Source of the DNA: Proteocatella sphenisci DSM 23131
Lineage (GTDB): Bacteria > Bacillota > Clostridia > Peptostreptococcales > Filifactoraceae
Direction: 5' to 3'
Assembly: GCF_000423525.1 (NCBI RefSeq)
Contig: NZ_AUID01000007.1
Coordinates: forward strand, 1 to 64,000
Length of the DNA: 64,000 bases
The position numbers and the translations under genes were made by a program. Positions 13,459 to 52,972 of the stretch are shown piece after piece. Below the pieces are notes generated by a model. The model did not search any database, was not told the origin of the DNA, and saw nothing but the letters and a program-made list of their open reading frames with translations. Position 1 is the stretch's first letter; the number at the start of each line of letters is the position of its first letter.

Positions 13459-14379
13459 TCATTTCTTTTTAACAATTCTGTACTTTTTGTTAAGACGGGG
13501 CATTTCTATATTGGTATTCATTACAAGTATAGCTATCATTATTATAGAAGCTCCCACAATCTTACCCAGATTTAAGGGTTCTTTGAGAAAAATCACAGCA
13601 ATACCTATAGAAACTACAAGTTCTATAGATGCTATTACCCCAAGCTTTGAAACCTGGACATTATAAAGCGAAGGTATATAGAGGCAGTAGGGTATGCTTG
13701 AGGCTACAAGTCCAAACAGGCCTATGGTAAGAAACACCGACCTGTCTCTCACTCCCATTATCCAAGTCAGGGGTTTTGCAAAGGGTATGAGCATAAGTGC
13801 TCCAAACATGAAACTGTATATTATTATTGTAAAAGGATTGTACTTAGCTGTCGTCTTTTTACTGAGCGCCGGCATAAGCGAATAACAAAGTGCTGCTAAT
13901 AGTCCAAGCAGTATTCCTGATATATTGCTCTGTAAGGTCGAAAAATCTCCTCCCGTAACCCCATATATACACCCTACAAGGCACAGCGTAACGGAAAACA
14001 CCTTCTTTTTGCTCGACTTTTCCTTATACATAAAAGTTCCAAGAAGAAACATTATAACAGGTGAAACGTAAAGGAGTACTACTGCCGTAAATGTTCCGAC
14101 AAGTTTTATAGACCCAAAATATGCCAGATTGAATATTCCCTGGGATACTATCCCGATTATCATTGCGCTCCACAGTCCCTTTTTATCAATCCTAAGCACA
14201 CCAGGGTCTTTGAATGCAAAAATAGTAAACAAAATTAAAAACCCTGAAAACAATCTTGAAAAAGCTATCATCTCAGAGCTCATACCATAAGCTTCTAAAG
14301 TTTTCCCAAAAAAACCCAGCGTCCCCCAAAATACTCCTGCAAGTCCTATTTTTATGTAATTTTTTGTTATCTGGTCCAT
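13459..14379 (-). CDS. EamA-family (DMT) transporter
   Basis: A 306-residue membrane protein with ten predicted segments and two EamA repeats: FWGTLGFFGKTLEAYG near the start, FNLAYFGSIKLVGTFTAVVLLYVSP at the end of repeat one, and the second repeat with LFGLVASSIPYCLYIPSLYN and ASIELVVSIGIAVIFLKEPLN. The family moves metabolites, amino acids or drugs. First gene of a four-gene operon with the cyclase, YkgJ and DUF362 genes. Substrate unknown. Confidence 0.88.
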   Translation of the reverse strand: MDQITKNYIKIGLAGVFWGTLGFFGKTLEAYGMSSEMIAFSRLFSGFLILFTIFAFKDPGVLRIDKKGLWSAMIIGIVSQGIFNLAYFGSIKLVGTFTAVVLLYVSPVIMFLLGTFMYKEKSSKKKVFSVTLCLVGCIYGVTGGDFSTLQSNISGILLGLLAALCYSLMPALSKKTTAKYNPFTIIIYSFMFGALMLIPFAKPLTWIMGVRDRSVFLTIGLFGLVASSIPYCLYIPSLYNVQVSKLGVIASIELVVSIGIAVIFLKEPLNLGKIVGASIIMIAILVMNTNIEMPRLNKKYRIVKKK

Positions 14380-14465: not shown

Positions 14466-14507
14466 AATAAAAAACCGAAAACGCGTAATAAGGCACGCAT
14501 TTTCGGT
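14466..14507 (-). terminator. Terminator of the metK-selenoprotein operon
   Basis: Minus-strand stem ACCGAAAA-GCG / CGC-TTTTCGGT (complements at 14474-14507) followed by TTTTTATT. It begins 13 bases after the selenoprotein stop codon, so it closes the metK transcript. Confidence 0.88.
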
Positions 14508-14519
14508 CATCTATATCTT

Positions 14520-14789
14520 TTATTTTACAGATTCAAGAAATTCTTCAATCTGATCTTCAAAATAAAAATTTTCACTGTCTACAACTATACATGGTATACC
14601 AACAGCTCCCACATTTTTTATTCTGTCAAATTCTTCTCTGGTGTCTCTGTATTTAAGGAACTGCTTGAGTGCAAACATGCTCTGTGTAATTTCCACATAT
14701 GCAAATTTTATATCGTTTTGTAAAAGTAACTCTTTTACCGGCTCGCAGCCTGGTCAATGCTGACTTCCAAAAACTACGATTTTTTTCAT
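14520..14789 (-). CDS. Selenocysteine-containing glutaredoxin-like protein (in-frame TGA)
   Basis: Reading ATG 14789 to TAA 14520 gives 89 residues if the TGA at 14756-14754 is read as selenocysteine at residue 12. The active site becomes GSQH-U-PGC (Sec12, Cys15), exactly where glutaredoxin-like proteins have CPxC, and Sec sits in the attacking position. The rest is a full thioredoxin fold: IVVFGSQ strand, FAYVEITQSMFALKQFLKYR, and VGIPCIVV with the cis-proline. The frame stays open for 77 codons after TGA with normal composition, so this is not a decayed gene. A hairpin 15 bases after TGA fits a bacterial SECIS. The start lies one base after the metK stop and has only a weak ribosome site, so it is probably coupled to metK. 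A GSH, thioredoxin or selenium-trafficking role is not resolved. Standard gene finding would split or miss it. Confidence 0.86.
14720..14738 (-). promoter_or_regulatory. Candidate bacterial SECIS hairpin
   Basis: In the mRNA, GTAAAAG and CTTTTAC form a perfect seven-base-pair stem around the loop AGTTA, starting 15 bases after the UGA. A G occupies the second loop position, about 24 bases from the UGA. As I recall, the bSECIS model asks for a G in the first two loop bases within roughly 16-37 bases, which this meets. A weaker hairpin (CC-A-GGCT/AGCC-GG) lies immediately after UGA. SelB binding is inferred. Confidence 0.68.
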
Positions 14790-14790
14790 A

Positions 14791-15972
14791 TTACAGGCTC
14801 GCTTTCAAAGCATCAACCTTGTTAAGAGCTTCCCATGGTGCATCTATGTCAGTTCTTCCAAAGTGTCCATATGCAGCTGTTTTCTTGTATATAGGTCTTC
14901 TCAGGTCAAGCTCTTTTATGATAGCTCCTGGTCTAAGGTCAAAGTTTTTGTTTATTATTTCAGCTATTTTGTCGTCTCCAACGATTCCTGTTCCAAATGT
15001 ATCAACCAGGATTGAAACCGGGCTCGCAACACCTATTGCATATGCAAGCTGAACTTCACATTTCTTTGCAATTCCTGCTGCAACAACATTCTTGGCTACC
15101 CATCTCGCTGCGTATGCTGCTGATCTGTCAACCTTTGTAGGATCTTTTCCTGAGAATGCTCCGCCGCCGTGTCTTGAATATCCGCCGTAAGTGTCAACAA
15201 TTATCTTTCTTCCAGTAACTCCTGCATCACCATGAGGTCCGCCAATTACGAATCTTCCCGTTGGGTTTACAAGATATTTAGTATTTTCATCAAGCAATGC
15301 TGGGTCTATTACAGGAACAATAACATTTTCCATCAGGTCTTTTTTTATCTGCTCAAGAGTAACGCTTTCTGCGTGTTGAGTAGAAATTAATACCGTATCT
15401 ATTCTCACTGGCCCATTGTCATCATATTCAACAGTAACTTGAGTCTTTCCATCTGGTCTTAGATAATCAAGAGTCCCGTTTTTTCTTACCTGGGAAAGTC
15501 TTATTGCAAGTTTATGAGCAAGTGATATTGGCAGTGGCATAAGCTCTGGTGTCTCATCACATGCAAAACCGAACATGATTCCCTGATCTCCTGCACCTAC
15601 AGTCTCTATACCCGACTCTTCTACTTCACCAGCTTTATGCTCAAGAGATTGATCAACTCCCATAGCTATATCAGCACTCTGCTCGTGTATTGCATTAAGA
15701 ACGCAACATGTTTCAGAATCAAATCCATATTTTCCTCTGTCATAACCTATTTCTTTTACTGTTTCTCTTACTATTGATTGAATATCTACATATGTGTTTG
15801 TAGATACTTCGCCCATAACCATTACCATACCTGTTGTAACTGCTGTCTCGCAAGCTACTCTGGCATTTGGATCCTTAGCAAAAATCGCATCAAGTATAGC
15901 GTCTGAAACCTGATCGCAAATCTTATCTGGATGCCCCTCTGTAACTGATTCCGAAGTGAATAGTCTTCTCAT
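14791..15972 (-). CDS. metK: S-adenosylmethionine synthetase
   Basis: A 393-residue enzyme that makes SAM from methionine and ATP. Hallmarks are [20 protein letters not shown] (residues 4-23), [10 protein letters not shown] (about 125), [16 protein letters not shown] and [18 protein letters not shown] near 240-270. Full length and intact. Transcription is controlled by a SAM-I riboswitch 35 bases upstream, so high SAM terminates the transcript. The downstream selenoprotein starts after one base, sharing the message and this control. Confidence 0.98.
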
Positions 15973-16006: not shown

Positions 16007-16178
16007 AAAAAACATTAACCTTTTTTTTGCAACAGCAAAGAGGATTAATGTTTTTGTCATTAACAAACCTCATCTGCCAAAACTAAATTTTGCAGGAATT
16101 AGCACCATACATTTCTGCTGGTTGCCGGGTTTCACAGGGCCAATCCCTCCACCGCTCTTGATAAGGTATCAAGAATAT
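16007..16178 (-). promoter_or_regulatory. SAM-I (S-box) riboswitch with terminator
   Basis: On the minus strand the leader carries the S-box core: CTTATCAAGAG, GGTGGAGGGA, TGGCCCTGTGAAACCC, GGCAACC and the GGTGCTAATTCC block. It is followed by a terminator whose arms AAAAACATTAATCC and GGTTAATGTTTTTTT (about 16012-16055) end in a T-run. SAM binding is expected to favour the terminator and turn off metK and the following selenoprotein gene. Confidence 0.95.
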
Positions 16179-18388: not shown

Positions 18389-20389
18389 CTATGCTACTTT
18401 AGCAGGTTTTATCTTTTTGTATTTTATATGTTGATAAGCTATCATAAGTGCTATACCACCCGTCCCGATGATATCTGTCATCACGGTAGGATTTATTAGC
18501 ATGAGTCCTGCAGCTATAAGAAGCAGGCGCTCCAACTTACTTGCCTTGCCATATACCCAGCCCGTCATCCCTGCGCTTATACCAAACATGCCCACCAGTG
18601 AAGTAGCCGTTATTCTAATTACTTCAATGAAATTGGTATCTATTAGTATCAGTGCCGGATTCATTACAAATATATAAGGTATTATAAAGGCCGCAATGGC
18701 GAGTTTTGTAGCCTGGACCCCGGTCTTAAAGGGGTTTCCTTTTGCTATAGCTGATCCCGCATATGCTGCAAGTGCAACAGGAGGAGTTATGTCAGCAAGT
18801 ATTCCAAAGTAGAATGTAAATAAGTGGGCTGCCAGAGGAGGTACTCCAAGCTGCATTACTATTGGCGCTGCTATAGTCGATGTTATAAGGTAGTTAGCAG
18901 TTGTTGGCACTCCCATTCCAAGCACAAGAGATGTTATCATGGTAAAGAAAAGCGTAAGTGAAACCATTCCACCCGCCGCCGAAATCAGGCCTCCACCAAG
19001 TTTTAGTCCAAGCCCTGTAAGGGTTACTATCCCAACTATTATACCTGCAACCCCGCAGGCACATGCAACACTTATTATATTTCTTGCTCCATTTATGAGA
19101 GCATCAAAAAGATCTCTAAGTGGAACGTAAGTACTCTTTCTAAGATAAGGCGCTATAACAGCTGCCAAAATACCTCTGGTTGCAGCATATATAGGCGATC
19201 TGTCCATAGCAAGAAGCACTATTATCACAACTATCGGAAGTATAAGATGTCCTCTTTCTTTCAAAATAGGGCCAACTTTTGGAAGTTGGTCTTTTGGAAT
19301 TCCTACAAGTCCAATTTTTTTTGCTTCCAGATGTATCATCATCCATATTCCAGTAAAATAAAGCAGAGCTGGAATTATAGCTGCCTTGGCAACTTCCAGA
19401 TATGGAACTCCAACAGCCTCAGCTATAAGAAAGGCTGCCGCTCCCATAATAGGAGGCATTATCTGTCCCCCTGTAGATGCAGCTGCTTCAACCGCTGCAG
19501 CAAATTCAGGCTTGTATCCAAGTGATTTCATGAGTGGTATTGTAAAAGATCCTGTAGATACCGTATTGGAAACCGATGATCCTGATATGGTACCTTGAAG
19601 CGCTGAAGTAAGTACCGCAACTTTTGCAGGTCCTCCCGCAGCAAAACCGGCTACCGAGTTGGCAACATCTATAAAGAACTGTCCAATTCCGGTCTTCTCA
19701 AGGAATGCCCCAAAAAGTATGAACAGGAATATATAGGTAGCACAAGTTCCAAGCGGCAGTCCTATTATTCCCTCAGTAGTATAGAAGAGATGAGTCGCTA
19801 TACGCTCAAGGCTGTAACCTCTATGGTTAAAAAATCCAGGTATATTTCTTCCAAAATATGCGTAGGAAATAAAAACCATTGCTATTATAACTATAGGCCA
19901 TCCGACAACTCTTCGGCAGGCCTCCATAACAAGTATGGTTCCAATTACACCAACTATTACGTCAACTTGATTATATGATCCCGACCTCCCTATTATCGCT
20001 TCATAATTCATTATGTAGTAAGCGACTATACAGAAAAATGCCCCCGAAAATATATAATCCAAAAAAGCAATTTTCTTTCTGCTTCCTTTTGAGGTAGCAG
20101 GATAAAGCAGATATGCCAGAGTTATTACAAAACCAAGGTGTATCATTCTTTGAAGCTGAGCCGGAAAAGTTCCCATAAGTGCGGTGTATAACTGAAAAGC
20201 TGTAAAGCAAAACAGCATTACCGTAGTGATTTTTTTCCAGATTCCATCGAGTTTTCTGTATGCCGATTCCTTATCCAGTTTCGCTAGAAGCTCATCTTTG
20301 TCTATAACCTCATCATCTTGGACCAAGCCCTCTTCAACCTGAGAACTGCCAGTCAGATTTTCCCCGTCTTTTTTTCTTCCAAATTTCAA
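18389..20389 (-). CDS. TRAP transporter fused permease (DctQM type, TAXI system)
   Basis: A 666-residue membrane protein. An acidic cytoplasmic N-terminus (1-45) is followed by a four-helix DctQ-like part (about 50-170) and the large DctM-like part. Diagnostic are GTISGSSVSNTVSTGSFTIPLMKSLGY, EAAASTGGQIMPPIMGAAAF and LGMGVPTTANYLITSTIAAP. TRAP systems use ion gradients with a periplasmic or lipid-anchored binding protein for uptake. It is last in an operon with the TAXI binding protein and a DUF1850 gene. Substrate unknown; some TAXI systems take up glutamate or other carboxylates. Confidence 0.95.
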   Translation of the reverse strand: MKFGRKKDGENLTGSSQVEEGLVQDDEVIDKDELLAKLDKESAYRKLDGIWKKITTVMLFCFTAFQLYTALMGTFPAQLQRMIHLGFVITLAYLLYPATSKGSRKKIAFLDYIFSGAFFCIVAYYIMNYEAIIGRSGSYNQVDVIVGVIGTILVMEACRRVVGWPIVIIAMVFISYAYFGRNIPGFFNHRGYSLERIATHLFYTTEGIIGLPLGTCATYIFLFILFGAFLEKTGIGQFFIDVANSVAGFAAGGPAKVAVLTSALQGTISGSSVSNTVSTGSFTIPLMKSLGYKPEFAAAVEAAASTGGQIMPPIMGAAAFLIAEAVGVPYLEVAKAAIIPALLYFTGIWMMIHLEAKKIGLVGIPKDQLPKVGPILKERGHLILPIVVIIVLLAMDRSPIYAATRGILAAVIAPYLRKSTYVPLRDLFDALINGARNIISVACACGVAGIIVGIVTLTGLGLKLGGGLISAAGGMVSLTLFFTMITSLVLGMGVPTTANYLITSTIAAPIVMQLGVPPLAAHLFTFYFGILADITPPVALAAYAGSAIAKGNPFKTGVQATKLAIAAFIIPYIFVMNPALILIDTNFIEVIRITATSLVGMFGISAGMTGWVYGKASKLERLLLIAAGLMLINPTVMTDIIGTGGIALMIAYQHIKYKKIKPAKVA

Positions 20390-20407
20390 ATTTGCACTTC
20401 CTTTCTT

Positions 20408-20905
20408 TTATGTCTTTATAATTTCATAGTAAGATGTTCTTTCAATCCTTATATTTATAGTCTTATAAGGCTGCAAATCATATAGTTTTACCCTGTTGTC
20501 TCCATATATGAAAACATGGTTGGCTATGCCTGCAGATGCATAGTTTACGCTTTGCATCCAGTTTTGCGCAAAATCTATCCTCAGCATATCTCCATCTTCT
20601 GTCATTTTCATATTTTCATCTATAGTATCCATCATCCCTGCACCGTAGTTTTCAAACCACCCACTTGTCAGATTGATTTTTTGTGTTTTCATATCCATAT
20701 AATATCGTTCTCTTATAAGTCCTTTGTTTACTGAGTGCCTGAATACAATATCAAAATATTCGCCATTTCCAAGACTGAAACTCCCTATGAGACTACCTTG
20801 CGATGTCCTGAGATTTACTCTTTTTGTAGCTGGTATAAAAAGAAGCATCATGATAATCAATAAAACAGACAGGGCCCTGAGCCCCATCTGTATATTATAT
20901 TTCAT
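20408..20905 (-). CDS. DUF1850 protein of the TAXI-TRAP operon
   Basis: A 165-residue protein with one N-terminal membrane segment (about 8-26, ALSVLLIIMMLLFIPAT) and an extracellular domain with FDIVFRHSVNKGLIRERYY, a pattern recurrent in DUF1850. The start overlaps the TAXI stop by one base (TAATG). DUF1850 genes commonly lie between TAXI binding and fused permease genes, which suggests an accessory subunit. Its biochemical role is unknown. Confidence 0.82.
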   Translation of the reverse strand: MKYNIQMGLRALSVLLIIMMLLFIPATKRVNLRTSQGSLIGSFSLGNGEYFDIVFRHSVNKGLIRERYYMDMKTQKINLTSGWFENYGAGMMDTIDENMKMTEDGDMLRIDFAQNWMQSVNYASAGIANHVFIYGDNRVKLYDLQPYKTINIRIERTSYYEIIKT

Positions 20906-21900
20906 TACCCTACTCCAACCTCAGAATAGTATTTTGCTGCACCCGGATGTAATGCTACAGTTACTCCGTCTGTTGCTTGTTCAAGAAGAATTTCTTTACC
21001 TTTTGCATGTGACTGTCCAAGTGTATCAAGATTTTCATATAGTGCTTTTGTAAAGTTGTAAACTTCCGTTTCATTAAGATCTGCTCTGGATATTATTATA
21101 GCCCTTACCGCTATTGTATTTATATCTTCAGCCGTTCCATAAACATCTTTAGGAATTGTTATAGTTGTGTAGAATGGATAATCAGCTACAAGTTTGTCAG
21201 CCTCTGCTCCATCTATATTAAGAAGCTGTATTGGTCTTGTAACCGCAAGCTCAACAATAGCAGTATTTGGAACTCCAGCTGTTACAAAAAATGCATCAAG
21301 CTGATTGTCTTTAAATGCGTTTCCACTCTCTTTGAATGAAAGACGGCTTACCTTTATATCATCCACGCTCATTCCATATGCCTCAAGAACCTGAAGTGCA
21401 TTTGCCTCAACTCCTGAACCTGCATCACCTATGGATACTCTCTTACCCTTAAGATCTGCTACTGTATTTATTCCACTGTCTGCTCCAACAACAAGCTGTA
21501 CTATCTCAGGGTATATTGATGCAACAGTACTTACTCCCGTTATAGGTTCTCCTTCAAAAAGCTGTACCCCTTTGTCAGCATAGTCAAGTACGTCATTTTG
21601 AACTATTGCATAGTCCGCTTCACCCTTTGAAACAAGCATTATGTTTTCTTTTGATGCTCCTGTTGACTGAACAGTTATGTTAGTTCCCTCAACCGCGCCG
21701 TTTATTATAGTTGCCATAGCCCCACCAAGCGGGTAATAAGTACCAGATGTTCCACCTGTAGCAAAAATGTAGTTACCGTTGTTAGTCAGCTCTCCATCTG
21801 TAGCAGCTGTAGTATCTCCAGAACCACCACATCCTGCAAGTGACATCCCCATTACTAGAACTGTAAGTAAAGCAAATCCTGATTTTAGTTTTCTTTTCAT
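20905..21900 (-). CDS. TAXI-family TRAP solute-binding lipoprotein
   Basis: About 331 residues. A lipoprotein signal (MKRKLKSGFALLTVLVMG ending SLAGC) precedes the TAXI domain with FATGGTSGTYYPLGGAMATI, TVQSTGASKENIMLV, DYAIVQNDVLDYADKG and LKGKRVSIGDAGSGVEANAL. The TAXI family binds the substrate and delivers it to the fused TRAP permease encoded downstream. I start at ATG 21900 with GGAGGAG; a longer frame at 21921 contains this site. Substrate cannot be assigned. Confidence 0.93.
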   Translation of the reverse strand: MKRKLKSGFALLTVLVMGMSLAGCGGSGDTTAATDGELTNNGNYIFATGGTSGTYYPLGGAMATIINGAVEGTNITVQSTGASKENIMLVSKGEADYAIVQNDVLDYADKGVQLFEGEPITGVSTVASIYPEIVQLVVGADSGINTVADLKGKRVSIGDAGSGVEANALQVLEAYGMSVDDIKVSRLSFKESGNAFKDNQLDAFFVTAGVPNTAIVELAVTRPIQLLNIDGAEADKLVADYPFYTTITIPKDVYGTAEDINTIAVRAIIISRADLNETEVYNFTKALYENLDTLGQSHAKGKEILLEQATDGVTVALHPGAAKYYSEVGVG

Positions 21901-22246
21901 TATAAATCTCCTCCCATGCATAATTTTAGCACTTTTCTCGCAATTAACAGTTTAATCCGAATATTGCGTCAAGCATTATAATATCCTGTTTCATATAAGA
22001 TATCATAATTCTTCGCATTTTTCAATAGAAAATATCATATTTGAACCGCTTTGATTTGTGACATTAAAACTAAGCTCTGGTTCATTATTAGTCAAATTAA
22101 CAGTGCGATCATCGTCATTTATAAAGATTTTTGTTCATTAAAAAAAGAGTTGCCAGATTGACATCTCTTTTTCTTAGCTAAGCCACCTTCTTCTCTTTAA
22201 TGTTACAACAAAAGGCAGGCAGCAAAATCCCCCAGAATTATCCAAA
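21901..22246. other. Intergenic region upstream of the TAXI-TRAP operon
   Basis: No gene seen. It should carry the operon promoter: a minus-strand TATAAT-like box near 21976-21981 and a TAAAAT box nearer the start are candidates, neither with a good -35. A hairpin terminator for the Fic gene is annotated separately. Confidence 0.4.
22140..22172 (-). terminator. Probable terminator downstream of the fic gene
   Basis: AAAAAGAG (22142-22149 complement region) pairs with CTCTTTTT, and TGTC pairs with GGCA inside; the minus strand then reads TTTTTTT. It lies about 75 bases after the Fic stop codon. Confidence 0.55.
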
Positions 22247-52650: not shown

Positions 52651-52972
52651 AAACTAAATTGTCCAAAAATTTAAAGGCTTTGATAAGAAATAGTAGATAT
52701 AATTAATTCCTAAAGAGAGGTTCTGCCTGGTGAAAAGAACTGGATAGATTATATTGAACACATCTTTGAGCTGTTCACCCAAATGCCCTGCGCAGAGTAG
52801 ACTGAACCGGTAAATGCATCCGTTACCAAATGCTGGAGTATCTTTATATCATATTTATCTGATGTTTACGTACTTTAAGAGGCAGATTTTGTGAAGAATC
52901 TGCAAATAAAGGTGGAACCACGCGAGCAAAAGCTTTCGTCCTTTGACATAGTCATAGGATGAGGGCTTTTTT
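52651..52972 (+). promoter_or_regulatory. T-box leader riboswitch
   Basis: The leader has the stem I apex (GGTTCT...GGTG...AGAACT at about 52719-52741), a specifier region GAACACATCTTTGAG (52756-52770), a stem III hairpin GCAGATT/AATCTGC, the T-box AAGGTGGAACCACG (52909-52922), and a terminator (about 52931-52970) with TTTTTTT. The specifier is CAC (His) by alignment to a glycyl T-box pattern I remember, or ACA (Thr) if shifted. The T-box UGGA pairs with a tRNA whose discriminator base is U, which argues against His. It should let uncharged tRNA switch on the amino-acid ABC transporter that follows. Confidence 0.93.

Follow-up and report, generated by a model that had tools for sequence, protein, structure and literature searches.

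A selenocysteine-encoding glutaredoxin-like gene, grxU, next to metK in Proteocatella sphenisci

Analysis of the Sargasso Sea set predicted selenocysteine (Sec) glutaredoxins with a UxxC motif (PMC1088965) and, by 2006, they had been counted in clostridia and Geobacter (PMC1794560). PMC13188914 describes them as experimentally verified, with reference to work on cGrx1. Of all solved structures, cGrx1 from Clostridium (Alkaliphilus) oremlandii (PDB 7c10 and 7c12) is the nearest, by sequence and by fold, to the product of the gene described here. According to PMC7642778, cGrx1 is a native selenoprotein glutaredoxin, with a U(C)PxC motif, and is proposed to be a reductant for MsrA. The UXX-star proteins (NF041212, NF041114) are also small and glutaredoxin-like and, like the product discussed below, have Sec at the nucleophile position.

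We analysed 64,000 nucleotides of the Proteocatella sphenisci DSM 23131 genome (contig NZ_AUID01000007.1, positions 1 to 64,000), hereafter the window. A sequence-only reading of this DNA had claimed that a minus-strand frame remains open through a TGA, and that the TGA falls on the first Cys of a CPxC motif. Both observations hold. The gene, named grxU, occupies positions 14520–14789 of the minus strand, from an ATG at 14789 to a TAA at 14522–14520, and comprises 89 codons plus the stop. Its sole in-frame TGA, at 14756–14754, is codon 12 and occupies the nucleophile position of the motif (HUPGC). If this codon is read as Sec, the product is MKKIVVFGSQHUPGCEPVKELLLQNDIKFAYVEITQSMFALKQFLKYRDTREEFDRIKNVGAVGIPCIVVDSENFYFEDQIEEFLESVK. 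Many candidates emerged when the window was scanned for further redox motifs interrupted by a TGA, but grxU alone appeared protein-like when judged by eye.

Relatives of grxU are widespread. The family was present in 30 of 98 related genomes searched; nearly all of the close matches had one TGA or none and, on reading, the TGA was at the same codon. In a class-wide sample, 106 of 391 genomes matched, many of them weakly. From the related genomes, genome contigs and the class-wide sample we assembled 59 distinct family members, including that of the window. The site codon is TGA in 35 and TGT or TGC in 24. As the sequence-only reading had anticipated, homologues align well downstream of this position, with either TGA or Cys at the codon itself. 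Members include Clostridium, Sedimentibacter, Oscillospiraceae and a Spirochaetes MAG, and a search of phages found no homologue. The family may correspond to COG4545. Mapping the Sec or Cys label onto the family tree, which was built on few columns and leaves many forks open, needs 8 changes, at least 4 of them forced by supported branches, compared with 18.8 for shuffled labels. Thus, Sec and Cys have been swapped several times. Separately, the Cys form in an Acetoanaerobium noterae record (NZ_CP154629.1, 2.63 Mb), which is labelled as a plasmid and lists only 4 genes, is nearly identical to that of genome G005; this points to Filifactoraceae as the family of the bacterium analysed here.

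Bacterial SECIS elements are described as lying just 3' of the UGA and carrying a G in a small apical loop (PMC1088965). The grxU hairpin, at 14738–14720 on the minus strand, has this arrangement. Counting the U of UGA as 1, positions 19–25 face 31–37, the loop is AGUUA and the invariant G is at 14730. Genes were scored for pairing of positions 21–25 with 31–35 and for a G at 27. This 5 bp stem and loop G, 22 nt after the UGA, were found in every TGA gene (35/35) and in no Cys gene (0/24; Fisher p ~5e-17, with counts inflated by relatedness). When synonymous codons were resampled according to the usage of each locus, the stem was expected by chance in ~0.6 of 35 genes. The covariation score was 0.228, against a shuffled mean of 0.126 (0/500 as high) and at most 0.088 for slid controls, and four pairs show compensatory, two-sided changes. 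The two outer pairs are not universal, occurring in 20/35 and 27/35 TGA genes. Where the codon containing the loop G specifies Glu it is always GAG (33/33 genes), whereas the window prefers GAA (719 to 322). A covariance model, which includes the window gene itself, scores the grxU element at 57.1 bits. Searching the whole genome for other genes with the same SECIS gave none that was convincing. The folding energy of the grxU hairpin alone is unremarkable (z about −1.4); it is not significant and was rejected as evidence. Hence, the significance of the hairpin comes from comparison across relatives only. The good SECIS-like hairpin of the sequence-only reading is present and conserved, but ordinary in energy.

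The sister genome encodes a redoxin 84% identical to the grxU product. Across the 77 codons after the TGA, the two genes show 34 differences, of which 6 are at first, 2 at second and 26 at third codon positions. With dN at 0.079 and dS at 0.69, the frame downstream of the TGA is constrained at the protein level. These comparisons bear on whether the TGA is a true stop, left by a nonsense mutation or a sequencing error in an ordinary Cys glutaredoxin, which would make grxU a pseudogene. A single change from TGT or TGC would suffice, and Cys forms occur in relatives. Conversely, 35 distinct genes, including that of the sister genome, share the TGA at this codon, protein constraint continues beyond it, and the SECIS stem is confined to TGA genes. 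A pseudogene is thus extremely improbable.

We examined the genome (2.41 Mb, 98.7% complete) for the means to insert Sec. The genes that the sequence-only reading called for are all there: selD, selA and selB lie in a row at C4:36213–40537, each scoring far above its cut-off, and tRNA-Sec, with anticodon TCA, is at C8:47778–47870 (70 bits). The selD gene (C4:36213–37136) has an in-frame TGA of its own, in the motif GUAAKIG; two or more Sec codons are therefore very likely in this genome. Across the class-wide sample, SelB scored above cut-off in all genomes carrying the TGA form (12/12) and in 5/27 of those carrying the Cys form (p 1.6e-6, with counts inflated by kinship of the genomes). Among near relatives, SelB is present in 14/14 genomes with the TGA form but also in 82/98 overall, which makes co-occurrence uninformative at that range; hence our use of the wider sample. 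Genome-wide reassignment of TGA, for example to Trp, or readthrough without selenium has in its favour that, of the three stops, TGA is used least in the window (3/45 long frames), but can be given almost no credence: TGA terminates long frames, for example at 13459 and 10917, with just 4 and 15 codons open beyond, relatives have Cys rather than Trp at the aligned residue, and the full Sec machinery is present. Taken together, comparison of sequences makes it almost certain that grxU is a selenoprotein gene in which UGA 14756–14754 is decoded as Sec. Decoding would involve SelB, Sec-tRNA-Sec and the downstream hairpin.

The grxU product matches the Pfam Glutaredoxin family (PF00462) with 34.1 bits, above the gathering score of 22.9, and falls below the cut-off of every NCBIfam model. 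Its AlphaFold model (pLDDT 91.7) has a glutaredoxin fold, with strands at residues 4–8, 30–33, 67–70 and 74–77 and helices at 15–24, 38–50, 52–59 and 78–88. As in glutaredoxins, the UxxC motif (U12, C15) is at the start of helix 1 and an invariant Pro, P66, is in the predicted cis-Pro loop; Cys67 adjoins it. In the family alignment the resolving Cys, C15, is invariant and a Cys after Pro66 is usual. A conserved insertion, LKxFLKxRDxxxxF, falls in the helical segment at 38–59, where K42 and R48 are invariant and L41, L45, D49 and F54 nearly so. The best structural match to the model is dithiol cGrx1 (Z 11.7, rmsd 1.4, 75 residues).

The location of grxU in a SAM operon had also been claimed, and the arrangement of the locus agrees. 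A gene for S-adenosylmethionine synthetase, metK, named from its sequence, precedes grxU on the minus strand (14791–15972); its TAA stop is at 14793–14791, leaving a gap of 1 base. A SAM (S-box) riboswitch (RF00162, 87.4 bits) at 16067–16167 heads the metK-grxU unit, and an intrinsic terminator-like hairpin lies downstream of grxU at 14473–14508, both on the minus strand. This organisation recurs in the sister genome, where the metK at the corresponding position is 94% identical. Within flanks of 1.5–3 kb around family members, linkage to metK as a general family trait was rejected: adjacency is confined to the genus of the window and one other genus of the same bacterial family. The linkage is thus local to that family, and it hints at a possible role in SAM metabolism. 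In the other genus, a Cys redoxin of a different clade is roughly 150–225 bases downstream of metK; this could be a same-site replacement or a tree artefact. Elsewhere in the window, reading of ORFs indicates TRAP/TAXI-type transporter-like genes upstream of the riboswitch region (18389–21921, minus strand), and there is a T-box leader at 52671–52946 on the plus strand (131.4 bits).

We propose that the grxU product, with its thioredoxin fold, acts as a selenol/thiol reductase. In this scheme, Sec12 would attack a substrate disulfide, or another oxidised sulfur group, and Cys15 would resolve the mixed selenenylsulfide; the resulting U12–C15 bond would then be re-reduced. If metK and grxU are co-transcribed, as their arrangement suggests, both would likely be made together when SAM is low. 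The protein probably acts as a disulfide reductase. Plausible substrates are methionine sulfoxide reductase, thiol enzymes that work in the Met/SAM pathway, or disulfides in general. Two MsrA genes and a thioredoxin reductase are present in the genome. It has no match to the Glu_cys_ligase family (PF04262), which makes glutathione a doubtful donor, although glutathione might be taken up or made by other ligases. The electrons would thus come from a donor of the thioredoxin reductase type rather than from self-made glutathione.

Sec could instead be inserted for another main role, either in binding of a metal or metalloid, as for UXX-star proteins, whose Sec residues are proposed metal ligands (PMC13188914), or in regulation of MetK, in keeping with the metK linkage in the genus of the window. 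We consider such a role unlikely. The invariance of Cys15 is as in dithiol redoxins, cGrx1, the closest match in structure, is a thiol-disulfide oxidoreductase (PMC7642778), and reading of the neighbouring ORFs shows no obvious metal gene. Returning to the reductase, a more specific proposal is tentative: the proteins with the insertion and the usual cis-Pro Cys might form a distinct Sec-glutaredoxin sub-lineage, as yet without a family model of its own, performing a glutathione-independent redox step tied to methionine/SAM metabolism, and placed under SAM riboswitch control via metK.

Several consequences follow for the study of such genes. With several exchanges of Sec and Cys among related genes, the family lends itself to comparing selenol with thiol chemistry. 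It also links one selenoprotein to SAM synthesis, in one genus at least. Since the grxU product is under all NCBIfam cut-offs, genes of this type are easily truncated or overlooked by standard gene finding.

How does grxU compare with described systems? Over the aligned fold, its product and cGrx1 are 27% identical. cGrx1 lacks both the segment at residues about 40–60 (LKxFLKxRDxxxxFxxIK) and the Cys after the cis-Pro, which the grxU product has; over the SECIS position, the cGrx1 sequence is VKEFLSE. We also observed that cGrx1-like TGA genes (UPHC) have a SECIS stem that spans the same codons and closely resembles that of grxU, which suggests a shared origin for the two elements. Against the UXX-star models, the grxU product scores 22.1 (NF041212, cut-off 66) and 19.9 (NF041114, cut-off 72), and it has a resolving Cys where UXX-star family 1 has UxxT (PMC13188914). 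The best-scoring NCBIfam model is the YruB-family (TIGR02196), at 35.8 bits and below the cut-off of 88.55; all 44 aligned members match it with E values of 0.001 or better. The sequence-only reading was right to see a selenoprotein redoxin but overstated the surprise, Sec-glutaredoxins being already established (PMC1794560, PMC13188914). One of the glutaredoxins in earlier surveys may belong to the grxU sub-lineage. Hence, grxU belongs to the known kind of Sec-glutaredoxins with UxxC and is not a new system; what it adds to that kind is a sub-lineage, widespread in clostridia, whose SECIS is very uniform.
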